The notes beneath the pieces were generated by a model. It worked only from the letters and a program-made list of their open reading frames with translations, made no database searches and was not told the origin of the DNA. The position numbers were made by a program, and so were the translations under genes. A DNA stretch of 64,000 bases from Thunnus maccoyii. Lineage: Eukaryota > Chordata > Actinopteri > Scombriformes > Scombridae. Below are positions 23,544 through 54,290 of this stretch, in pieces. The stretch covers positions 16,696,791 to 16,760,790 of the forward strand of contig NC_056536.1 in NCBI RefSeq assembly GCF_910596095.1, in the 5' to 3' direction. How positions within the stretch are numbered: position 1 is the stretch's first letter; each line of letters opens with the position of its first letter.

Positions 23544-23572
23544 TCACCCGTTCATGACCATCCTGACCAGTT
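23544..23572 (-). CDS. myl6: myl6 terminal exon, smooth-muscle-type C-terminus
   Basis: Reads ELVRMVMNG then TGA when joined to exon 25,080-25,157 (TATGAAG|AACTG). This matches the ELVRMVLNG end of the vertebrate isoform annotated as smooth-muscle. The acceptor is CTTTACAG. The exon continues into the 3' UTR. Used when the 24,640-24,668 cassette is skipped. Confidence 0.85.
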
Positions 23573-26500
23573 CTGTAAAGAGAGATGAGAAAGACAAATG
23601 TCAGACACATCGACTACATTATGGCAGAGACCTACTCCAACTACAGCATGTGGAGCTGAGGCCCCTCTCCTCATCCAGCTTTGGTGAGGCTGGGTGGGAG
23701 ATGCTGCATTTGGAGGCAGATCCCCCATATTCCGATCACCCAGAAGAAAAAAAAGGGCTGAAGAAGGTACTGAGAGAAAGAGGTGAGGTAATCATCTCTA
23801 TCTCCTATTCAGCCAAAAGCATTTTGGCCATGTCTATGATCCAAGAAGAGCTGGTTAGAGAAGCCATCCTCGCTGTATGCTTTCCTCTAGTTGAGAAGCA
23901 GAGAAAAGGGGAGAAGATCAGGGAGCTACAGTCCAGTCAGAGAGCGGCCAGCTACAAATTCAGCTTCCGTCAGTACAGAGGAGAACACAATCAGCACAAG
24001 AGCAACTTATTGCAATTCTCTGGTTAGTAGAAAAAAGGGACTGGTCCACTCTCCCAAAGCTGGTGGCAATACTTGAATCTAAAAACATGTCTACAAGGTA
24101 ATGAACTGGTTGTCAATTATCTGCGAGAAGAGTAGCACCTCTAACACCAACTGAGGATAACCCTGTTTTTATAGCACCAATGACATGCAAATGAGATTAG
24201 AAGAGCTGTCTTATGATCTCCACACCCAGCAGCTCAAATGACTCGACAGTGGCCACCAGTCTTTTCCCTGAATGAGACCAGTCACTTCCCTGTGTGTCCA
24301 CCATATCCCCTTATAAACTTGAGGGGATTCCCAGACACATGCAGAGGGGCATGCTGCAGCCAAGGGCCAAGACAGAGGGCTGCAGGAGGGATAGACAGAA
24401 CAGCAGGAGGCTACACATGGGTCAAAACATCAGGACTAAAGATGAGAGGGACCACCAGGCTTTCCCACAGGCATCTACGGGTCAAATCTACTTTGCAACA
24501 GCTCATTGTTGCTGTTTGGCAATATGAGGAGCACAACTACAATTTATTAGTGTTAGAAAAGCCTAATGGTAGTGGATTATTTAATGCAGGGAAGCCTGGA
24601 GGTGCCATCTCATGGTATACCCAATGCCCGTACCGGCCCTCAGCCTGACATGATGTGGCGGACAAATGCTGTGGAAGAAGAACATTGAACACACTGTCAG
24701 CAATTGACATTATACATGGCCTCTTAAAGCAGTCAATTAATGACTTGGAGGCGGACGATGCTAACATGAATAGACACCCACTTCTTCATAGGACTACATC
24801 AAAGCATTACTGTAGTCAGTTTGGTATAACATTTAGATAAACAGGATTTACATAAAACTTTACAGAAACTCAAACTATTATTTTTCCTCAAATTACACAA
24901 TATTTCACGTCAACATTCGGTGTCAGGCATGACCAGTGTTTCATTATCGCCTTGCCAAAACTGGGTAGAATGGTTACACGGAATAATTTTCAGATTCATA
25001 GCAATAGCATTTTCACACACCATCAGTCTAATTATGGTGAACCTACAATCTTGGTCCTGCTTATTTCCTAGACTCTCACCTTCATAATTGATGCAGCCAT
25101 TTGCATCTTCGTGTCCCGCCAAGAGCGTCTCCACTTCCTCCTCTGTCATTTTCTCACCTGAAAATGGAATATATAAAACGTTTACTTATATAATGTGAGT
25201 GACATTAACATGATTTTTTAGATGTGAAAGCAAAGGATAAGGAAAGATAAGTAAAATAATGCGAATAAATTTACACACTAGATGGCAAAAAATCCTTGAA
25301 GCAAAACAAATTTACAAACGTGCAATTCATTTATTTTTCATGCCGTGTACACTCTTATTACAGTTAATTCAACTTATAGCTTTCCATTCTGGGGATTACA
25401 CTTTTTCAGTTTTCCTCTAAGTAAAAAGTGCTAAGTGATATCTATGGGTATATGATATAATTGTAACTTGCCTAGCGTGGTGAGGACGTGACGTAGCTCT
25501 GCCCCCATTACTGTGCCGTTGCCCTCCTTGTCAAAGACACGCAGTCCCTCCACAAAATCCTCCATGGAGCCCTGATCTTTATTCTTAGCGATGGCCTGGA
25601 ACATGGGCAGGAACTGCTCAAAATCTAGCATCTTGGTATTCATCTCTGCAAAAACACAGGCAAAACAGAATTAATTAGGCAAGTCTGAGTCTCTCAGCAC
25701 ACTCAGTACAACATAGTGAAAGACGTGAATTTTGAGACAAAAATCAGCATAGTGACAATCAAACAATTTACATTAAAGACACAACTCCCAGTAAATATAA
25801 TTTTTCTCCCTCACCCTCAGCCTTGGGGTTGCCCAGGACCTTAAGCACCTCAGCGTTGACAGGGTTCTGTCCCAGGGCCCGCATGACGTCCCCACACTGA
25901 CTGAAGCTGATCTTCCCATCTCCTGTCCTGTCGAACAGCAGGAATGCCTCCTTAAACTCTGCAGGATACACACACACAATAAATTAGAGCAGGGATATGA
26001 ATCATTGTAACAATTTAGAGTTGAACAGGGATGTATGGAGGGATGATATGGAGACAGTAAGGCAACTGAAAAAAGTAAAGAACAGAAAAGCGTCCAGACA
26101 GATTGTGAAGAAGAAAACAAGCAGACTAGAGAAAGCACAGATTATGAAAAGTGATTGAGCTTGTAAATTATCTATTTTTCTACTGGCAGGCCTAATTTTA
26201 AAGTGAGCAGGCAGGACAAACAGCGACACTGACAAGCCTACATCAGTTTCATATGTCACTCTAGGAAAGATAATTCCAGCCAGTCTACCTGGTACAATCA
26301 ATAATACATTGATACATTGTGCACCTCTCTATGGGTCACTCCATGCTGATGTTGTGCAGACAAAATTTGTTCAAACACACAGGATTTACATTTTTATAAC
26401 TGAACTCTGCAATTATTTGAATTAATATCACATTATTTACACCCACGTGAGAGAGTGTGGTGCAACCACTAAAACCAGTGTACTCTCTGTACTCTGCTGG

Positions 26501-29500
26501 CTGACAATGAAAACACCCTCCAACTTCCCCAATTCAGCAAATAACATGTTTGTGTTAGTCATCTGGTCGGCCAATGATATTTTCACTACACACCATCAGG
26601 AACAAGGCAAAACTGTTGCACCAATTTGACACAAGATGCACTGTCATCTTGGCTGCAGTTTCAACATGCAAAACAATAACAGATAACATTTCCAAAGACA
26701 TCAGATGTGTCTGAATTACTGTATAAATATATAAATGAGCAAAGAGATATGTACATAGTATGTTAGAAAAAATAATTATGTGCAGGACTTTTATATATAA
26801 ATGAACATCCGTTACATTCAAGTTCTTGCCAAATAAGTTCACACAGTGCTGATTAAGCCCATCATCGCCAGGTAAATCTCTCCATATTTCGCAGTATACT
26901 GGAGTTTTTAAATCTGGTGTCTGTGACGACTTTCTGGTGCTGGTGCACCGGTAGTGATGCATTTTACGTCAACCAGCAATGATTGGTTTGCGAATGTCGA
27001 CTGAGGCGAACTATCCTCAGAGCAAACAAAAACAAAAGGCATTGATAGAAAATGTAAAAAAAAAAAAAAAAGCAGGTAATCTTAATTGAATAGTTGTAAC
27101 CAACACATGTTTTGCTATTTTACTTGATAAACAACACAAACGTATGAACTAGTTTACAAGAAATACAGCATAAAACTGTGCATAATTTAAAAAATTCAGT
27201 CAATCACCTCCAAAAATTATAGTACAAACAAACAAACTTGTGTGTCTTAATGTGAAAGTTGTAATGTTGCACTACGTATCCCTTTCAGCATGGATCAGTC
27301 ATCTCTAATAACTTGGCACTCATTTTATGGTAGCAAACAAAAGATTAATCAGTGTCAGTGGTTCAAAGTTTTAATTATCACATTTACTAGACACACCTCT
27401 ACTGCTTGCCGAATTCACTTTGACATAAATGTTTTACTGTGCTGTTGAACAGTCAATAAGGATGTGAGGTACCTGAGCCATCTATAGTATTAACATTAAT
27501 AAATTTATAAGTTTAAGCTTGATCAACTATCAGCAATGATGCAATCTTGTCACTGATCACAGGATTGATTGATTTTGCTTTGATCTAACAACAGGCATTC
27601 TAGTTTATCTCAAGAGCCAAACAAAGAGCTAAGCTAAGATCTAGCAATCAGCGAGACATAGGTTTGGATTACACAATATCCGGGCAGCAGGCTGTTGCTA
27701 ATGTTATGGAACAAGCTATTCTCCCAAAAAAGCTCAGGCACTGTTGTGGAGTTTTTCCTGTTCTGAGGAATGCGCCTCTTCCCTTCTGGCATGAGAGCAC
27801 TTTTCCCCAACACCATATTTGGTATTAGAGGAGTGGAGGAAAGTAGGAGGAGAGTGAAGAGTAGCCATAGCCTATTATGTCAACGGTGATTAAACAAACC
27901 AGCCCTAGGACAAAAACCATCCACCACTGGATCCAGCACCAAAAAAGGGCAATCTCGTGGAGATGAGCCGCTTGAAAGATAACAGGGAAAGTTTATGGCA
28001 ATCTCACATAACCAGGAATGACTACAGTCCAACAGAACAACAAGAACAGATATGAGCTTTGAATATGTTTAGCTTTATAAGTACTGCTAATGCATGATTG
28101 ACTACATACAAAAACACTGCAACACACAGTGAAAGCCAGTAAGTATTACAACGTTATATGCAAAATGTGACTGATTTTGACGTACCAAACAGTGCAAAGC
28201 GCCTCATTCACAGTTAAAAACAGATTTGGTTTATCCAAAACCAACATGCAGATCACACCCTGAACACTCCGAAATAGCCATCAGTTTAATGCTAAGGCGG
28301 ACCCTTTACACTGACTTACCATGAATCTGATCCAGGTTAAATTCAATCTGGAAAGGACAAGCAGTTGCAAGTGGAAAGTGATGAAACAGTACGGAAATAA
28401 AGAAGAAAAACCTAACGTTTGTCTAAAACCAGTACTACTATGACAGGAGGCGGGCATAGAGCAGAGTGATAGTGGAGACACAGGGCAAAGTGCCATTTGA
28501 ATCAAGCAGAAATGAAAGCATGCAAAACAAGCGGGGTCTGAAATATGTCACAACATAAAACTCAAAACTCACCGAGGATTTGATCTTCCGAGAAGTCAGA
28601 CTGTTCAAAGAGAAATTAGGCTAAATGAAGATGGTTCCTTTTACTACGGAGTGCAAAGCTAACTCCGGTTAACTTCAAAGGCTTTTAGAAAATTTTCAGT
28701 TAGTTAGATTTAACGTTACTAAAACCACATATTCCCCAAGTGTAGCACATTGCAAAATAATACATTTACGAGCGGGTAATTTGGTGACGTTATTTAGCTT
28801 ATTGTGTAATTGTTAACTTTAGCTACCGTGCAAGCTAACGTTAGCTAGCTTCTCAAAAGTTGCACTTCCGCTAGCGACCAAGGAGCCAATCCACATATTC
28901 AAACGCAACTTAACATCTTTGCAAAACTTAACAGATTTTCTTAATGCATTACACTGTTAGCTAACTACACAAGAACTGCGTGTAATGTTAAGTTAAGTCG
29001 AGTGGAACGAAAAACCCACCATGGCTGTGTCGGCTGAGGTGTGTCCGAGGCGTCGGCGAACCAAAGAATGTGTGACGGCTCTGAGAGGCAGGGTGAGAAA
29101 ACCCTAGCAGCAGTACGTAATAACGTCACCGTACGAGGGCCCTGAGCAACCATACACTCCTTATATAGGAACAAAGGTCTAGGGATGATGTGTGATTTGC
29201 GGTACGTGTGATATATGCCTTAAAGCTCCTTAAAAATTGCATTTTATGATTCAGTTGATATGTACATGGAATTATAACTTGTTACATAGCAGAAATAAAG
29301 AGCAAGAAGGCTAAATGTCATTTATGCTGATCAAACTGCTCGGATGGGTTCACTTTTTTTTCTGTCTGTTTATAGGACAATACACTCATGCCCATATGTA
29401 CATTGAAGGAATTATTGGTCGCTGTGTTTATTACTCCTGTCCTGCTTAGTGCAACTCCAGTGCAAGAGATGGGGAACAAAATCCACAGTCCTTTTTATGT

Positions 29501-31609
29501 GCAAAAACGTGTTCTAAAGTCTAGCTGAAGCTAATTATGAGGTTTTAGCAGTTTTAGTCAGACAAATCAAGTGATATCTTCAGTTGATGTTCTTTTTAGT
29601 ACAAAATTTACAATCGTGTTACTATCCCTGCAGCTCAGAAAGGAAATATTGTACCAGAGAGACAAAGAGGGAATGTCATAAAATGATTTTGGAATATATG
29701 CTCCTGATCTGTTTAACTCAGACTGCTTAAGCTATTATTATTATCTTCGGCTGAATTATGGAATGCATTTTGTAGGAAAGGTGGTCTGTGGATTTTGTTC
29801 TCTGCTTCTTACATAAGAGCTGCACTAAGAAGGATCTCTTCATAGCCAGTATGGACAAGAGTGACCAGTATCTCTTCCACTGCACATATGGGCATGTTAG
29901 TACGTATGAAACCTATATTTAGTGATGTGTGCCCAGATTAGGACACCATTTTAAGATGTTTTATTCGTCCCCTGGTGGTGTATATTTGACTTTGGTGATT
30001 TTGACCCCACTTGCATAATTGCACTGAGTGACTTTGCTTGGCTTTGCATTAAGGATGTGGCCATGCAGGAATGATGGATTACTCTAAGGCCAGTGAGATC
30101 ATGGACTGATGCCACATTTCTTAAAGTACTGTCTTTGCCCAGCAGAAGCTCTGGCCTCCTGTCATGTGTCTGGTCCCACTGTGAGCAGAAGAGGGGGTCT
30201 TAATATGGTACAGATATGCTCACAGGCTAAATGGGACAGTCACCCCATGAAACCATGCAGTGCACACAAAAAATTACACTCAGCATATGAGGATGGCAAT
30301 GAAGCTGAAGCACCAACAAAGCTAACGCACATTAGTGCAAAGTCTAATGTGGGCATCAGTATGAGATATTGAGTTTTTTCAACACATCTATTCCTACCTC
30401 TCCGGGGTAGTCAAAGCAGCTACATCTATTTACTGACATTTTGTATATACTGATACTTAATTTCCAGTCATTCAGAGGGTTGAAGAAATGGGACTCAAAT
30501 TTTAGACTGCCATAATAGTTAAGTAAATGCAAAATTTACTAGTATTCCAATAGTGATATTGATTGATATTTTAGTACTGTATGTATGTAACGAAGTAAAG
30601 AATTTGCCGGTGGACAAACTATGAAATAATGACGGTATTTACTTGATGCCTTATATGCTGTATTTTTTAAATACAGTGGTATATATAGTTGTTAGCTACT
30701 TTATAGTGGTTTAGCAGCTAACATTTGCTAATATATCTATGACATGCCAGTGATGATCAATAAATACTGTTTGTCCCTCTGATATATTAGTCCGGTTTTA
30801 TCTCTGATGTATCTCACAAGCTGTCATCAGATGTCTGATACAGACCTATCAGGAAGTATACTCTCTTTACTCTCTTTGCAGTTGATTCGTAGTTTTGTCA
30901 AATAACAAAGATTTGTAAAGTAAAAATTTACATTTTTAATTTACAGTAAACACTTGACTTAAATTTATATTTGATTTAGAGTTTTAAGTTATTTTACAAT
31001 TGCAGCTGTCTAGGTCACAAAGGTTAGGTTACTAATTTGATGGGATCACCTGCCTGATGAAAGAAATAGCACATGTACTCTGGCAGGGAACAGCCTCTTT
31101 CTCCCTAAGGAGGCCACTGACTGACTGACTGCCTCATCTTCAGTGCTCCATTTCTTTTTTTAGCTTAGATTCACTCTCATTGATGCTGAGAGCTTTGCCT
31201 GTCTAGTTACCTTCAGAGTCAAAGAAAGCTACAAATAACCAGCAATTGATGTTTTACATTAGTAATTGACATCTGACAACATATCACTATTTTGTATAGG
31301 TTTACTTTGTTGGCTAAGATGATCAAACACTATACTAAGGATGGAATAAAATCGATCAACAGAACATAAAGTATGTATGAATGCCCCGCATTAGCTTTGT
31401 AACAAAAAGTACACTGCAGTTTCTCCACTCACCTCCAAAGTACTGGGGTCAAATGGTGAATCCGAAGGACGCAGCATCCTAGGCTTCTGCTCTGGAGCTG
31501 GTTTTGGAGCTGCAGGAGCTGCAGGGAGGCAGGGGAAAGGGGGTCCCAGTCTGGGTTGGGACACTGGTGAAGGAGACTTCTTAACGGAGGGTTCTCTTTT
31601 AGGAGCCAT
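23544..31609 (-). CDS. myl6: Essential myosin light chain 6, combined MYL6/MYL6B-type locus
   Basis: Encodes the alkali (essential) light chain of non-muscle and smooth-muscle myosin II, which wraps the heavy-chain lever arm. Two 5' exon pairs join common exons 25,815-25,958, 25,472-25,645 and 25,080-25,157, followed by one of two C-terminal exons. Short form: 3+28+144+174+78+29 coding nt = 151 aa plus stop, the length of human MYL6. Long form: 177+28+144+174+78+29 = 209 aa plus stop, close to human MYL6B (208). EF-hand blocks are visible ([40 protein letters not shown]), with the usual degenerate Ca sites of this family. All junctions keep phase. Two N-termini and two C-termini predict up to four proteins. 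Known tetrapods split these forms into two adjacent genes. Transcript evidence is needed for exon pairing. Confidence 0.88.
23573..24633 (-). other. myl6: myl6 last intron
   Basis: Lies between the cassette and the terminal exon. Two + strand open frames of 157 and 136 codons cross it (the first also covers the terminal exon antisense). They have no family similarity and I consider them chance. Confidence 0.65.
24640..24668 (-). CDS. myl6: myl6 alternative cassette exon, non-muscle-type C-terminus
   Basis: Preceded by acceptor TCTTCCACAG. It reads AFVRHIMSG then TGA when joined in phase to exon 25,080-25,157, matching the AFVRHILSG end of non-muscle vertebrate MYL6. The exon carries its own stop, so inclusion replaces the ELVRMVMNG tail. 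Its downstream donor is either GTACGG (exon end 24,634, 35 nt) or GTATAC (exon end 24,621, 48 nt); I cannot choose between them. Confidence 0.85.
25080..25157 (-). CDS. myl6: myl6 common exon ([17 protein letters not shown])
   Basis: 78 nt, acceptor CATTTTCAG, donor GAAG|GTGAGA. Encodes the last EF-hand region through GCINYE. The last base of the exon starts the codon shared with either alternative C-terminal exon. Confidence 0.92.
25472..25645 (-). CDS. myl6: myl6 common exon ([10 protein letters not shown] to LTTLG)
   Basis: 174 nt, acceptor GTTTTTGCAG. Encodes the linker and the EF-hand [20 protein letters not shown]. The donor is non-canonical: the required phase puts the boundary at CTAG|GCAAGT, a GC donor with otherwise perfect consensus. 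Confidence 0.92.
25815..25958 (-). CDS. myl6: myl6 common exon ([16 protein letters not shown])
   Basis: 144 nt, acceptor ATCCTGCAG, donor GAGG|GTGAGG. Encodes the first EF-hand and [20 protein letters not shown]. It is the first exon shared by the short and long forms; its first two bases finish the Glu codon opened by either 28-nt exon. Confidence 0.93.
25959..28319 (-). other. myl6: myl6 intron between 28-nt exons and common exons
   Basis: 2.36 kb without recognised coding sequence. AT-rich, with a short poly-A near 27,057. Splicing control of the alternative 28-nt exons could lie here. Confidence 0.6.
28320..28347 (-). CDS. myl6: myl6 alternative exon, long (MYL6B/LC1-type) form
   Basis: 28 nt with acceptor CCTTTCCAG and strong donor CATG|GTAAGT. 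After the long first exon it reads IEFNLDQIH and then joins EFKEAF. This matches the VIEFNKDQLEEFKEAF segment of human MYL6B and IEF of fast-muscle MLC1. It has the same length and phase as exon 28,573-28,600. Using both together would shift the frame, so the two must be mutually exclusive. Confidence 0.85.
28573..28600 (-). CDS. myl6: myl6 alternative exon, short (MYL6) form
   Basis: 28 nt with acceptor TTTGAACAG and donor CTCG|GTGAGT. After the start exon it reads (M)SDFSEDQIL then EFKEAF, matching human MYL6 MCDFTEDQTAEFKEAF. Confidence 0.9.
29020..29022 (-). CDS. myl6: myl6 short-form first exon: start codon only
   Basis: The exon's only coding bases are the ATG in CACAGCCATG|GTGGGT, an adequate initiation context. 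The next residue comes from exon 28,573-28,600. The 5' UTR runs upstream to about 29,135, judging by the TATA box. A start exon coding only for Met is the known arrangement for MYL6. Confidence 0.8.
29159..29168 (-). promoter_or_regulatory. myl6: TATA-box promoter of myl6 short form
   Basis: Minus strand reads TCCTATATAAGGAG, a good TATA box about 140 bases before the short-form ATG. Between them lies GGTGACGTTATTACG (about 29,118-29,132), containing a TGACGT CRE half-site. A true CArG box is not present (seven A/T between CC and GG rather than six). Confidence 0.5.
29345..29925. mobile_element. Fold-back / MITE-like element, second copy
   Basis: Left part has CCCATATGTACATTGAA and GATGGGGAACAAAATCCAC; right part has the inverted counterparts GTGGATTTTGTTC and GCACATATGGGC. 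The interior (AGTCAGACAAATCAAG, TTTTTAGTACAAAATTTACA, CTGCAGCTCAGAAAGGAAATA) parallels the 15.83-16.44 kb element. It sits about 0.2 kb upstream of the short-form TATA box, inside the long-form intron. Confidence 0.7.
29926..31432 (-). other. myl6: Long-form intron, distal part
   Basis: No coding exon seen on either strand. AT-rich. It is intronic for the long form and upstream flank for the short form. Confidence 0.6.
31433..31609 (-). CDS. myl6: myl6 long-form first coding exon (LC1/MYL6B-type N-terminus)
   Basis: 59 codons starting [15 protein letters not shown], then Pro/Ala-rich sequence ending SPFDPSTLE, phase-0 donor GAG|GTGAGT. MLC1-type light chains carry just such an extension: basic N-terminus, Pro/Ala spacer, then IEF. 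The family's basic tip contacts actin. Initiator Met removal would expose A-P-K, the recognition motif of the N-terminal methyltransferase NTMT1. The start was chosen by family match; the frame is open 28 codons further upstream without family similarity. It lies 2.4 kb upstream of the short-form start, so it needs its own promoter. Confidence 0.82.
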
Positions 31610-32118
31610 TCCTATCCTGTTCTGGACAGCCAATAAACGTAGTCTCAGATCTCTGCACCAGCTGCTGGTATGGCTGCTGAGAGGAGATATCAAGCTATGA
31701 GTTAAAGTGTGTCAGTTGTGTGTATCCCGTGGAGGGGTGGGGCGAGGAGAAAAGCAGGTTGATGATGCCGATGATGCTCAGGGACTGGCAGGTGGATGAG
31801 GCAGAGGTGGATGTATGGAAGAGCATGTGTGTGAGTTAGTGAAGCGAAACGCAGGAGGTGTGGAGATGAAATCCTTAGTGTAGAATAGATATAGAGAGTA
31901 CCAGGCTCAGCTGTATGACTCCAAGCACATACTTGTATTTGGGTCAGAAATGCATGTGTGTGTGCTTGTGTGCTTGTGTGTGTGGGGGAGCGAAGTAGCA
32001 ACGAGAAGGGTTTCTGTGTTAAGCTTAATAAAATATACAGACCTTAACCTAACATCAGTCTCTTATTTTTGTGTAGAGGTGTTATAAGAGGTATGGTATA
32101 TAGTCTAATAATACCATA

Positions 32119-32551: not shown

Positions 32552-33352
32552 ACCATTATTGTTGAATATTTTGACCAAAATAAGTAGAGATTTAAGCAAA
32601 TATGCCAATTAGTGTGTAATGACACATAAAAATGATTTGAGAATTACAGCTGAGTTTCTGTTCATTTAATGCTACTTGATTTATCTCTACTTCACTACAT
32701 TTCAGAGGTAATTATTATATTTTTACTCCATCTATTTGTCATCTGTAGTTCCTTTGTGTAATTACTCTGCAGATTAAGATTCAAAACACAAAACCCATGA
32801 TAATCTTATAAAATATGGTGCTTTATTAAAGATTAAACAGAGTCCAAGTATATTTAAAGCCCTACCTCAACCAGCTACAACACTGAAATGCTGTTTACAC
32901 AGAAATGTGTCAAATATAATAATCAGTCAAAATTATTAACACACTAACAGGGGTCATTGTGAGTATACCTTTAATACTTTTTATTACAATTTTTAAATTA
33001 AATTTTACAACTTCCATAGTAGTTGTAGAGTACTTTTTCAGTATTGTGGTACTTCTTCCGCCACCACACAGACTCTTACTGTATGTGGTAAAGATACATT
33101 AAACCAAAGGGAGATTGTAGTTTAATATAGTACCACTAGATGTCATTAGTACACAACAGGAATAGTTTACACGACCCCATAAAGCCAGCGGCTGCAACTC
33201 AGTAAAAAAAAAATCTCTTGCCAGTTAATTGAATCTATCTCAAGTAGCAAGTTTTGATCCAACACATGCGACCCTGCAAGGCAACAACAATTTGATGATG
33301 GACGAGATATGAATAAATAAACAACAAAAACAATAAAAAAAACCCCAAAACA

Positions 33353-33410
<58 letters not shown>
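33353..33410. repeat. (CTAT)n tetranucleotide microsatellite
   Basis: About 14.5 perfect CTAT units, likely length-polymorphic. Confidence 0.95.
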
Positions 33411-33411
<1 letters not shown>

Positions 33412-33469
33412 AATGGGGGGTTTGAGAGAGGCATGTTTCGACGGACAGATTTACAACTTCTAGCGTCAC

Positions 33470-33690
33470 TCCACCAGCTCCTCCAATAATCAATGGTCTC
33501 CACTCGTCAGCGGATTTTGCGCACAATCCATCGCGCGCTCAATGGGCCTTGAAATCACCGTTTATGTGTCTCGAGCCTCAAAACAATAGCGGCATAAGAC
33601 CCTTGCTGCGAGACCAACGGCACTTCTGGCCCTTTAATAGCAGATCGAACATGCAAAATGAGGAATGAAAAAAGACCTCTCAACAAAGTC
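33470..33690. promoter_or_regulatory. CpG-containing non-coding block, possible regulatory element
   Basis: Stands out from CpG-poor surroundings with several CpG sites (GCGCACAATCCATCGCGCGC near 33,520; CTCGAGCCTC; TAGCGGCATAAG). No long open frame. Could be a conserved element for neurod4 or a long-form myl6 element; conservation across fish would decide. Confidence 0.3.
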
Positions 33691-37668
<3,978 letters not shown>

Positions 37669-37779
37669 AGCATAGGGCTCCGCTTCCTCTCTGTCCACAT
37701 GCCATTGTGGCCAGTACACTGACCAGGAGTGATTAGGGCCGTTAGCGAGGTGGATAAATGCTGTTTCAGCACGAGACAT

Positions 37780-38225
37780 CATCTTGGCCAAGCGAGTGAC
37801 GCGTGAGCATCCAAGCAACAGATGCCCCACCCCCAACGCTTCTTATATGCAGCCATCTGTTAGGGTCTGTTGTTCAATAAATCGTTGGATAAGTGCCCGT
37901 TTTTACGCGATGTTGCCGATTAGCCACGTGACCATGTCTTATTTTTCCAGACTTTGGAAGTATATCGCACACTTGTAAACACGGAGAGCCCACAGTGCTG
38001 TTGGCAGAGTTCAGTCTCACTCGTCTCGAGCACAGCTGTGCGCAATCGCTTGCTCAATGGGATCAATGCGGGGGCACGTGCGAGTCGCTAGACCCCGGCT
38101 GTCAATGGCCAGTGATGACAATAGACCCCCACTGCGCTGCGGCTCGCCACGCACGAGGACTGGCGGGCGTTTATTATGCCGAGGCATTTGTAGTCAAAAC
38201 TGGGGGAAATGCTCAATACTGATCT
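37780..38225. promoter_or_regulatory. CpG-rich block upstream of neurod4
   Basis: Contains more than a dozen CpGs, concentrated at about 38,025-38,185, in a CpG-poor neighbourhood, and two CACGTG E-boxes (37,925-37,930; 38,075-38,080). Short open frames run through it but none resembles a known protein. Likely a CpG island, enhancer or unmapped first exon; no transcript evidence. Confidence 0.35.
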
Positions 38226-39480
38226 ACAATCAGTGTAAAAACAATAAAGGTCAGATAATAATTTCTTCCACGGGCTCTATTGAGTTGAAAAGTCAAGTCT
38301 TGTAGTCCTCGTCCTGCTAATGACGTGACGAACCTTTATCATACAAAAACAATAAAAAACAAAGCAAACTAATAAAAACAAAGAAAGAAATGAACCGAAC
38401 ACAGGAAACCTAGTCTACATCACTCCAATCCTGAAATAATTTATAGGCTAGTAACGTTATTAATACGGTAGGCTATTATATTATGTTTGCAATTTTCATT
38501 GCCATGGTAGAGTTATAAGCCTACCTGTCTTTTCATCATTGCACCAATCCATTCAATAATAAGACAGTATTTGGAGGCAGAATATGACGCTAAAAATGGA
38601 AGAAAACAGTTCAACGACTGGGAAAATGACGCACACACCTGCTCTCTGCACACCAAGCTGTCAAAATCACTTACATAGGCACACATGGAAGAGCGTCCCT
38701 TTACTCAGCGAAGAACAGGCCTACACTGTGTTTAATTAAGTGGAAAATTCCTAATCCAACCGACTAATGAAGAGATAGACAATCGATTAATATAGTTAAC
38801 CCACACATGACAATAAATCAGAACGCTGGAATTTTTGTTTTTTTTCCCAACATTTCCAAGTGTGAAGATGTACACTTTTGTCTTTTAAGAGGAACAAATT
38901 AGGCTATATGCAGGACTTAATTTCTGCCTGATCTAGCCGCAACATGATCCCAGATTGGGACAGGCGACCAAACAGATTTTGAGTTTCCTGGCTCTCCTAT
39001 CTGCTGTCAGCAATTACAAATTGTGACCAAAACTGAAATTCCAAAACAGGTCACAGAATATCTTGTTACAGATTTGCAAAAGAGGAAATAAGGTGAGGTG
39101 TTTTTGACAAAAGAGGGAGAGGATGGTGAAGAATAAACTATGCAAGTGTCTAGCCAAATAATTTTGGCAGATTATTAGTGTAAAATCTACAGCTCCAAGC
39201 AAGTGGGTGTTTTGTGCGGTGTGGAGAGCATAACTGTGGCTGGTGAAAACCAAGTCATGTAAATGTGGGTACAGCTACTTTATATGTGTGTTTGCACCGT
39301 GCGCTCCGATGTAACATCAGATATGCTCCTTATACCTATATCAAGTGTCCTGAACATAATTTGTGATGGTCATATTTATATTTCTATATTTCCACTGTGT
39401 TTTAAAGCGTTCCAAGATATTTCTGCATTGACTCGTCCGACAATCACTCAGGACCTCCTAATTTACTAATAAATCACTCA
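38226..39480. other. neurod4 proximal upstream region
   Basis: AT-rich, no coding exon seen. Probably includes cis-regulatory sequence for neurod4, but I cannot delimit sites. Confidence 0.5.
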
Positions 39481-39483
39481 CTA

Positions 39484-39812
39484 CACGTGCACCAAGGCGC
39501 GCTCTCTCTCTTTCCCTCACACATTCGCTGGGTGAAACTTCTGGCCACGAGACAGCCACGCGCGTTTGAATGGGTTGGTCGTGGGTGGGGCGCAGGAGGG
39601 AGGGGCCTCACCCGGCTAAAGGCAAAAAAATCAGCCCGATCGTGCCATTTGGAGATGAAAGTTCCATGAGCACGCATGGCTATCTGAGGAGCGGAAGAGT
39701 TTTGGACACTGGCAGAAACGCAGCGACTCTGGATTAATTAGACAATTGCTGGGCTTTTTGAATTAGCCAGATTTTTGTTATTTTTCGCAGAGTGAGCAGT
39801 GAATCCAAACAG
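39484..39812 (+). promoter_or_regulatory. neurod4: neurod4 promoter and non-coding first exon
   Basis: CpG- and GC-richer sequence with a CACGTG E-box at 39,484-39,489 and GGGTGGGGCGCAGGAGGG near 39,585. It ends in the strong donor CCAAACAG|GTGAGT at 39,812/39,813. NEUROD-family genes typically have an untranslated first exon followed by an intronless coding exon, which fits. The transcription start is not determined (probably 39,620-39,700); no clear TATA box. Confidence 0.55.
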
Positions 39813-52439: not shown

Positions 52440-54290
52440 TGAGCTTAAGTTTATGATACCCTCTTACTTTCTTTTACTCTGATCTCTCCTTATGTCTGCT
52501 CGTAAACCCTTCCCTATAGTGAGCTCTCCAATTACTGCAATTGATTTTCTTAATTTCTTTAATCACAAACTTGACTGTATTCTCTACCCACCGGGGGTGT
52601 TGACCCTTTCAAAATTGTGCATTTGGTGCATTGGAGACCACTGCCACGCTCTCACAATTTGAGGCTGTCTCCTTGGACACCTTCTGTAGGTTGCTGCTCT
52701 CCTCTAAATCCACAACCTGCGTATCTGACCATTTTCCTGTTAAATTGGTTATGGAACTTCTTATGATATTAGGCCCCTCCCTACTCAACATTATTAACAC
52801 CTCTCTTTTGTCTGGTGTTGTGCCCACCTCCTTTAAATCACTTAAACCTCAGCTCAAAAAACCTAACCTTGATCCTGATATTATCAATAACTTCAGACCT
52901 ATCTCCAATCTCCCCTTCCTCTCTAAAGTCTTGGAAAGAATTGTTTCCATCCATCTAACCGACTACCTCTCATCTAACAGTCTACTTGAACCCTTTCGAT
53001 CTGGCTTTAGATCGTTCCATAGCACTGAGACCACTCTCACAAAAGTGGTAAATGACCTACTCCTCGTCTCAGATTTTGACTCCTCTTCTATTCTTATCTT
53101 ACTTGATTTAAGTGCGGCATTTGATACTGTCGATCATAATATTCTTTTAAATCGCCTAGCGAGCTACATTGGTGTCCATGACTCTGTGCTTTCGTGGCTA
53201 AGCTTCTACCTATCTGAAAGAACTCATTGTGACTTAAAAATGTAACATCTGAATACTCTAAAGTTAACTTTGGCGTACCGCAGGGTTCTGTGCTGGGGCC
53301 TTTGCTTTTTTTGTCTACATGCTACCTCTTGGTGAAATTTTTCACAGCTACGGTATCAAATTTCACTGTCTGCGGATGATACCCAAATTTACATACCAAT
53401 TACACCTGATGATCATTCACAAATTGCAAATCTTGAATTATATCTAGTCATTGTTACAAATTAGATGTCACAAAACTTCTTGCGATTAAATGCCGATAAA
53501 ACTGAGATGCTAATTGTTGGCCCCAAAATCCAACTCCCTCTTCTTGCAGACCTTACTCTGAACTTTGGGGACAATTACCCAGAGCTCCACAGTTAAAAAC
53601 CTTGGCATTATTTTTGACACAGCTCTCTCATTTGATGCTCACATTAGAGAAATTTCTAAGATCTCCGATCGCATGATGCTGGATATCTTGGATATCTGTT
53701 CCTAGAATCAAGAAAAAATCAGTAAACAGTTGAGCGTTCTCCTACTGAGCTCCATATCTCTGGAACCAGCTACCTGTTACAATCAGGGGAGCAACTTTAT
53801 TTGAAATCTTCAAATCTAGACTCAAAACATACTTATTCTTGCAATCATATGACCTGCCCTGGCACCATTGGCATGGGTTCAATATAGTCTTTTCCCTCAC
53901 CTCAGTCTGCTGGTGCGCCGTCTGGTGGCTGAATATCGTGTATTGCACCCTTAATGTCTGTATGAAACTCACCTGGGTTTTGTACATCTTTTGTATTGCT
54001 CTATGTTTTGGGGTGTGTTTGTGAGGTTGCAGAATATTAGACTGTCTCACTAAAATCTGCATTTCTGCAATCATCAGCATGTCATAACGTGCGTGTGTCA
54101 CTCGATTCACTACTTCAGATGGTTTTCTGTGTATTGGATCCTCTTTAAATTTTCCATAATTTATTTATTTATTTATTTTATGTTGTCCCTCCTTGATTCT
54201 TCTAATATTGTTTTACTGCTGTAAAGTGTATTGAGACACCCTGGTGTGATTTTGCACTTTAAATAAATAAACTTTGACTTTTGACTTTAG
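52440..54290 (+). mobile_element. Decayed L2/CR1-type non-LTR retrotransposon, 5'-truncated
   Basis: A 204-codon frame (52,631-53,245) has reverse-transcriptase blocks NNFRPISNLPFLSKVLERIV, GFRSFHSTETTL and LILLDLSAAFDTVDHNILLN (motif A). After it come frameshifted remnants: GVPQGSVLGP near 53,276, the catalytic ADDTQIY region near 53,373 with a frame break just before it, NADKTEMLIVGP near 53,495 and the family's closing KSRLKTYLF-like block near 53,815. The 3' end is an AAATAAATAAACTTTGACTT-type tail near 54,260-54,290. Several frameshifts and an internal loss around 53,690-53,740 show it is inactive. The 5' boundary is approximate. Confidence 0.85.
52631..53245 (+). pseudogene. Reverse transcriptase fragment of the L2-type element
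   Basis: Longest intact part of ORF2. It covers fingers and palm up to motif A and shortly beyond, ends prematurely at 53,243-53,245, and lacks the catalytic ADD motif in frame and the endonuclease domain. Not a host gene. Confidence 0.85.

Follow-up and report, generated by a model that had tools for sequence, protein, structure and literature searches.

A myl6-class gene of Thunnus maccoyii with two alternative first exons and a MYL1-like exon order

Introduction

In MYL1 (MLC1f/MLC3f), two starts feed one set of shared exons, and the exons follow the order LC1 first, LC3 first, LC3 second, LC1 second and shared. Tetrapod MYL6 and MYL6B are adjacent genes, of which MYL6B encodes a chain of 208 amino acids (aa), and the N-terminal tails of LC1 chains touch actin. 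Here, we describe a myosin light-chain locus of the tuna Thunnus maccoyii, located in a stretch of 64,000 nucleotides (nt) of contig NC_056536.1 (positions 16,696,791 to 16,760,790). The whole stretch is hereafter the window, its positions are counted from its first letter, and its contig is called C4, other contigs being named in the same way. The minus strand of the window carries one myl6-class gene with two alternative first exons and one set of shared exons. It is likely that this is a dual-start gene organised like MYL1, yielding both a MYL6-type chain and a MYL6B-like chain of LC1 type, and that this state is old and was later split in tetrapods. The organisation itself is known from MYL1. 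No dual-start fish myl6 was described in the titles and abstract openings among the matches listed by a literature search, and both isoforms may already be present in fish database gene models.

Exon layout and reading frames

The long, LC1-type first coding exon (L1, 31433..31609, on the minus strand like all exons of this gene) comprises 59 codons rich in Ala, Pro and Lys, opens with the earliest in-frame ATG downstream of a stop codon and ends in GAG/GTGAGT, the slash marking the exon border. The short first coding exon (S1, 29020..29022; ATG/GTGGGT) lies 2.4 kb downstream of L1. Two second exons of 28 nt follow, namely the short-form S2 (28573..28600; AG before, GTGAGT after), which encodes SDFSEDQIL, and the long-form L2 (28320..28347; AG before, GTAAGT after), which encodes IEFNLDQIH; they are identical at 14/28 positions. 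The shared part consists of exon 3 (25815..25958), exon 4 (25472..25645) and exon 5 (25080..25157), and all splice sites of the gene are canonical but one, a GC donor after exon 4 (AG/GCAAGT, 25471). The gene has two alternative coding ends, of which AFVRHIMSG (24640..24668) is presumably the non-muscle type. The other, ELVRMVMNG (23544..23572), is of the smooth-muscle type, and PDB chain 6xe9_B, named as a smooth muscle isoform, reads ELVRMVLS there. Whichever coding end is used, the long product has 209 aa and the short product 151 aa. The coordinates of L1, S1, S2 and L2, the order L1, S1, S2, L2, shared, and both lengths had been proposed in a first-pass annotation, and were confirmed in the sequence and by translation. 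The text of that annotation contained neither the second alternative coding end, which its start coordinate covers, nor the duplicate locus described below.

One 28-nt exon per transcript keeps the frame, and the joins L1-L2, L1-S2, S1-S2 and S1-L2 are all open. Omission of both exons leads to a stop after 108 or 50 residues, while with both included the frame shifts and meets a stop once 69 or 11 aa have been read, so that such RNA should be destroyed. S2 and L2 would accordingly be chosen singly, an exclusive splicing that is predicted here, as are the use of the promoters, the contact with actin and the history of the gene.

The exons stand out from chance matches. A test of 28-nt exons covered 715 frames of the form AG-28nt-G followed by GT or GC, drawn on both strands from the whole window, from the myl6 stretch, which thus enters twice, and from eight regions, two of which lie on C18. 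Within the window, a light-chain pattern was fitted by S2 and L2 only; elsewhere, it was fitted by their counterparts on C3, C11, C12 and C18, the last in two copies. Moreover, among the ATG frames of at least 40 codons in the window, three stay open up to a GTGAGT or GTAAGT donor with AG or TG before it, and these are L1 and two frames finishing at the L2 donor.

Class of the core and of the long form

A whole-genome search with the long protein (782 Mb, 54 contigs) gave 32 matches out of 61 candidates, all of which were scored. Only two of them are myl6-class cores, that of the window gene and that of a gene on C3, and the more distant matches, 37 to 52% identical, have the appearance of more distant EF-hand genes. 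A separate myl6b, for which the first-pass annotation had proposed a search, was not found among the 32 matches in this genome, the sole other myl6-class core being the C3 duplicate. On C4, a single set of shared exons was found, which supports the nested, MYL1-like arrangement within one gene that had been suggested.

A tree was built from 14 shared cores trimmed after NYE, 8 from this genome and 6 from PDB searches, including one MYL6B sequence; the species labels of the six PDB-derived cores are taken as we assume them to be. With supports given as Shimodaira–Hasegawa-like approximate likelihood ratio test/ultrafast bootstrap (SH-aLRT/UFBoot), the five MYL6, MYL6B and fish cores split from the MYL1/MYL3 types at a moderate 81.1/78, so the window core falls with MYL6 and MYL6B rather than with MYL1, MYL3 or the fish genes related to them. 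The C11 and C24 cores group with MYL1 (89.7/80), whereas the window gene does not, and the C12, C18, C19 and C9 cores belong to the group that holds MYL3 (97.1/82), with no resolution within it. Tetrapod MYL6 and MYL6B cluster at 88.8/88, with the fish pair adjoining outside the cluster, which favours a MYL6/MYL6B duplication after the fish–tetrapod split. A later split as the origin of the tetrapod pair therefore seems moderately supported by this grouping.

The second exon of the long form points to MYL6B as well. At the L2 position, the MYL6B chain 1oe9_B from PDB reads IEFNKDQLE, compared with IEFNLDQIH in the window. The motif IEFN-x-DQ is common to L2 and MYL6B and is absent from the genes on C9, C11, C12, C18, C19 and C24, whose second-exon peptides are VEFSADQIE (C11, C9), LEFTPEQIE (C12), IDFGPDQIE (C18), LEYSADQIE (C19) and AEFSADQIE (C24); the MYL1 and MYL3 chains from a PDB search of the long form are also without it. 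In that search, performed with the whole long form, a MYL1 chain came first and MYL6 second. What links the long form to MYL6B is thus its locus, the tree of the cores and the IEFN-x-DQ motif of its second exon.

A duplicate locus in which no long exons were found

The second myl6-class gene lies on the minus strand of C3 (15855358-15856448). On C4, a c1q-like gene (+, 16707273), myl6 (-) and a neurod-like gene (+, 16737655) follow one another, and the same order is found on C3, with c1q-like (+) at 15816960, myl6 (-) and neurod-like (+) at 15874874. The neighbours in the window carry Pfam C1q and Neuro_bHLH domains, and they may correspond to C1QL4 and NEUROD4 of the human 12q13 map. The C3 copy is a segmental twin of the window gene and probably arose by genome duplication. 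Between the two cores, synonymous divergence (dS) is ~1.44 and nonsynonymous divergence (dN) 0.037 over 132 codons.

The C3 copy retains S1 in the same design (ATG/GTACGT at 15858542) and S2 (SDFSEDQII). Protein search and patterns revealed nothing resembling L1 or L2 between S1 and neurod, where one base was uncovered, or between S2 and exon 3. The single loose pattern match on C3 lies beyond neurod and is not light-chain-like, and the closest match to L2 reaches 17/28 in 14.5 kb, whereas chance alone gives up to 19/28 in the 64-kb window. The putative promoters of the short start on C4 and C3 share a best local match of 13 columns.

Two further differences between the copies were observed. 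Only ELVRVVMSG was found as a coding end in the 3.0 and 4.4 kb scanned past exon 5 on C3, so that, C4 having both ends, a second feature is apparently missing from C3. As well, GC donors occur at different introns, after exon 4 on C4 and after exon 3 on C3.

Putative promoters and predicted expression

The putative short-form promoter (28501..29300, minus strand) is CpG-rich compared with most of the window and has TATATAA at 29167. The observed/expected (o/e) CpG ratio is 0.95 at 28801-29100, versus a median of 0.26 over 637 intervals of the window, in which equally CpG-rich stretches include, among others, 33301-33800 and 37701-39800. The putative long-form promoter (31610..31960, minus strand) is CpG-poor, with an o/e ratio of 0.26 at the long start (31501-31800), and contains two CAGCTG E-boxes, that is, 2 in 370 bp versus 0.185 expected from the window density, in a stretch picked after the sites had been seen. 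This contrast is compatible, and no more than compatible, with broad promoter activity for the MYL6 form and restricted activity for the long one.

The CpG-rich promoter near 29.1 kb would give rise to the short MYL6-type chain through S1, S2 and the shared exons, while a promoter farther upstream, probably at about 31.7 kb, would yield the long LC1-type chain through L1, L2 and the shared exons. The added N-terminal tail of the long form should touch actin, and the two alternative last exons would provide a non-muscle or a smooth-muscle end. According to the excerpt of PMC4502549, MYL6B (MLC1sa) is a slow-muscle chain in man, not in mouse, and MYL6 is the smooth and non-muscle chain; the part of PMC7710916 at hand states that either MYL6 or MYL6B can serve non-muscle myosin II.

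Upstream of L1, two other features were seen. The stretch 33301-33800, ~1.7 kb upstream of L1, reaches a CpG o/e of 1.18 and could house an upstream start or an untranslated exon, and an inverted repeat around TATTTAATATATAATA was noticed by eye at ~32165-32117.

Alternative explanations

Could the long exons be relics of a long form that was once made, the gene now making the short form only? The C3 copy suggests that loss of the long exons is possible. However, the 59-codon frame of L1 is open, and its start codon and the three splice dinucleotides are intact. In a neutral simulation of 200,000 runs that ignored indels, with intactness defined as start codon, three splice dinucleotides and an open frame of L1+L2, the two exons stayed intact in 0.88%, 0.035% and 0.0055% of runs at 0.36, 0.72 and 1.0 substitutions per site, respectively. 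If the long exons are older than the duplication, neutral survival at a dS of ~1.4 would be rare (0.035%; 0.88% at half the rate), their intactness on C4 argues for use and their disappearance from C3 shows the outcome without selection. Relics are thus quite unlikely. It is far less credible still that L1 and L2 are parts of another gene copy next to this one: L1 does lie well upstream of S1, but a single set of shared exons was found on C4 and L2 sits between S2 and exon 3.

A merger is another explanation, in which the separation of MYL6 from MYL6B is older than that of fish from tetrapods, and the two genes later fused in fish, where the MYL6B core was lost and myl6 kept its first two exons. 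A tree with MYL6B outside MYL6 and the fish genes is not rejected by the approximately unbiased (AU) test (p 0.08), and a coral MYL6B orthologue, considered below, would agree with an early separation. The best tree, however, joins tetrapod MYL6 and MYL6B, and L2 has the position it has in the MYL1-like order, where a simple upstream fusion would not put it. The merger is therefore unlikely. The preferred reading remains that of an old dual-start gene: on the most economical history, the C3 duplicate would have lost the long exons, and in tetrapods the two starts would have gone to separate neighbouring genes, MYL6B and MYL6.

Several observations weigh against this preferred reading. Since L1-S2 and S1-L2 are in-frame joins, the frame does not force L1 to join L2, and the two are paired by homology. 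A TATA box was looked for just upstream of L1 and not found, because of which the long-form start is unplaced. In a shuffle test, L1 scored z 3.5 against MYL6B and more (4.3 to 5.6) against five out of seven further LC1 tails: the values were 4.8 for MYL1, 4.9 for MYL3, 3.0 for C11, 5.4 for C12, 5.6 for C18, 4.3 for C19 and 1.4 for C9. The LC1/MYL6B-like N-terminus of the first-pass annotation thus stands as LC1-class, whereas a specific likeness of L1 to MYL6B is unsupported, and L1 would be a general LC1-class tail. In the PDB search, the MYL6B chain (without its tail) ranked ninth, behind MYL1, MYL6 and MYL3 chains. The later split proposed for the tetrapod pair agrees with the grouping in the tree, although two other placements of MYL6B, 4.59 log units worse, are retained (AU p 0.084), and gene conversion in tetrapods could mimic that grouping. 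In the portion of PMC11203038 consulted, an annotation-based table credits corals with orthologues of MYL6 as well as MYL6B, which would move the split far earlier, and labelling alone may explain it. The goldfish muscle transcriptome of PMC6290348, in the extract available, has one myl6 and no myl6b, and there the long form is not addressed.

Other light-chain genes and features

On C19 (17012899-17013522, minus strand) and C9 (278674-279204, plus strand), full-length LC1-type genes occur that are apparently intronless, with open frames, and 64% identical to the long form; both fall in the MYL3-like group and are probably old retrocopies. A repeated light-chain cluster on C18 (29802868-29863950) comprises two copies with identical 28-nt exons, an additional exon match ~60 kb off, and an exon 4 seemingly split by an extra intron. 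In the MYL1-class gene on C24 (8179870-8179990), the Pro/Ala-rich tail and EFSADQIE apparently form one exon, unlike the usual 28-nt design.

In the window itself, an open frame at 52604-53242 (+) has a reverse transcriptase domain (Pfam RVT_1, E 1.7e-12) and is probably part of a long interspersed nuclear element (LINE), while Rfam and tRNA scans of the window gave no matches. Stray fish DNA among microbial and viral contigs was also considered, and none of the pattern matches encoded a relative (0/21 viral, 0/67 bacterial and archaeal).

Comparison with known systems

If the dual-start reading is true, the origin of the MYL6/MYL6B pair would be explained, and the locus would show once more how the alternative products of a single gene are parcelled out to duplicates. 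Fish work that treats myl6 as a non-muscle chain only may then overlook a long muscle-type product, and counts over the shared exons would blend the long and short forms. It is conceivable, at slightly less than even chances, that a two-start gene older than the vertebrate genome duplications was passed to MYL1 and MYL6, that tetrapods split its MYL6 copy into MYL6B and MYL6 and teleosts its MYL1 copy into LC1 and LC3 genes, either lineage leaving undivided what the other divided, and that C3/C4 represents a third, partial division within one genome. The excerpt of PMC2235844 places MYL1, MYL4 and MYL6 on HOX-bearing chromosomes with the tree ((MYL4, MYL1), MYL6), and disputes a simple two-round origin of those regions. 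In the part of PMC3679108 consulted, MYL6B is named in the neighbourhood of HOXC13, ERBB3 and a C1q-like gene, with the species not stated there, and a fish locus of the window type may be meant by that label.

The window gene has the same exon order as MYL1, and its second exons are likewise interchangeable in frame and not combinable. Unlike MYL1, it has a MYL6-class core, a MYL6-type short form and two alternative coding ends. Compared with tetrapod MYL6 and MYL6B, the short form resembles MYL6 and the long form is close to MYL6B in length (209 aa) and in IEFN-x-DQ, whereas the fish has one gene instead of two and L1 is not specifically MYL6B-like. For fast muscle, the excerpt of PMC10039937 reports that mammals make A1 and A2 from a single gene, that the shark examined (by complementary DNA) probably does so too, and that teleosts use different loci. 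In the tuna, LC1-type exons were found at both C11 and C24 and an LC3-type 28-nt exon at neither, so the teleost LC1/LC3 separation was not reproduced. The separate teleost LC1 and LC3 loci, whose two starts belong to one mammalian gene, are the mirror image of the window locus: teleosts and tetrapods look like each keeping one dual-start gene and splitting the other, the MYL1 half of this picture being that given in the excerpt of PMC10039937.

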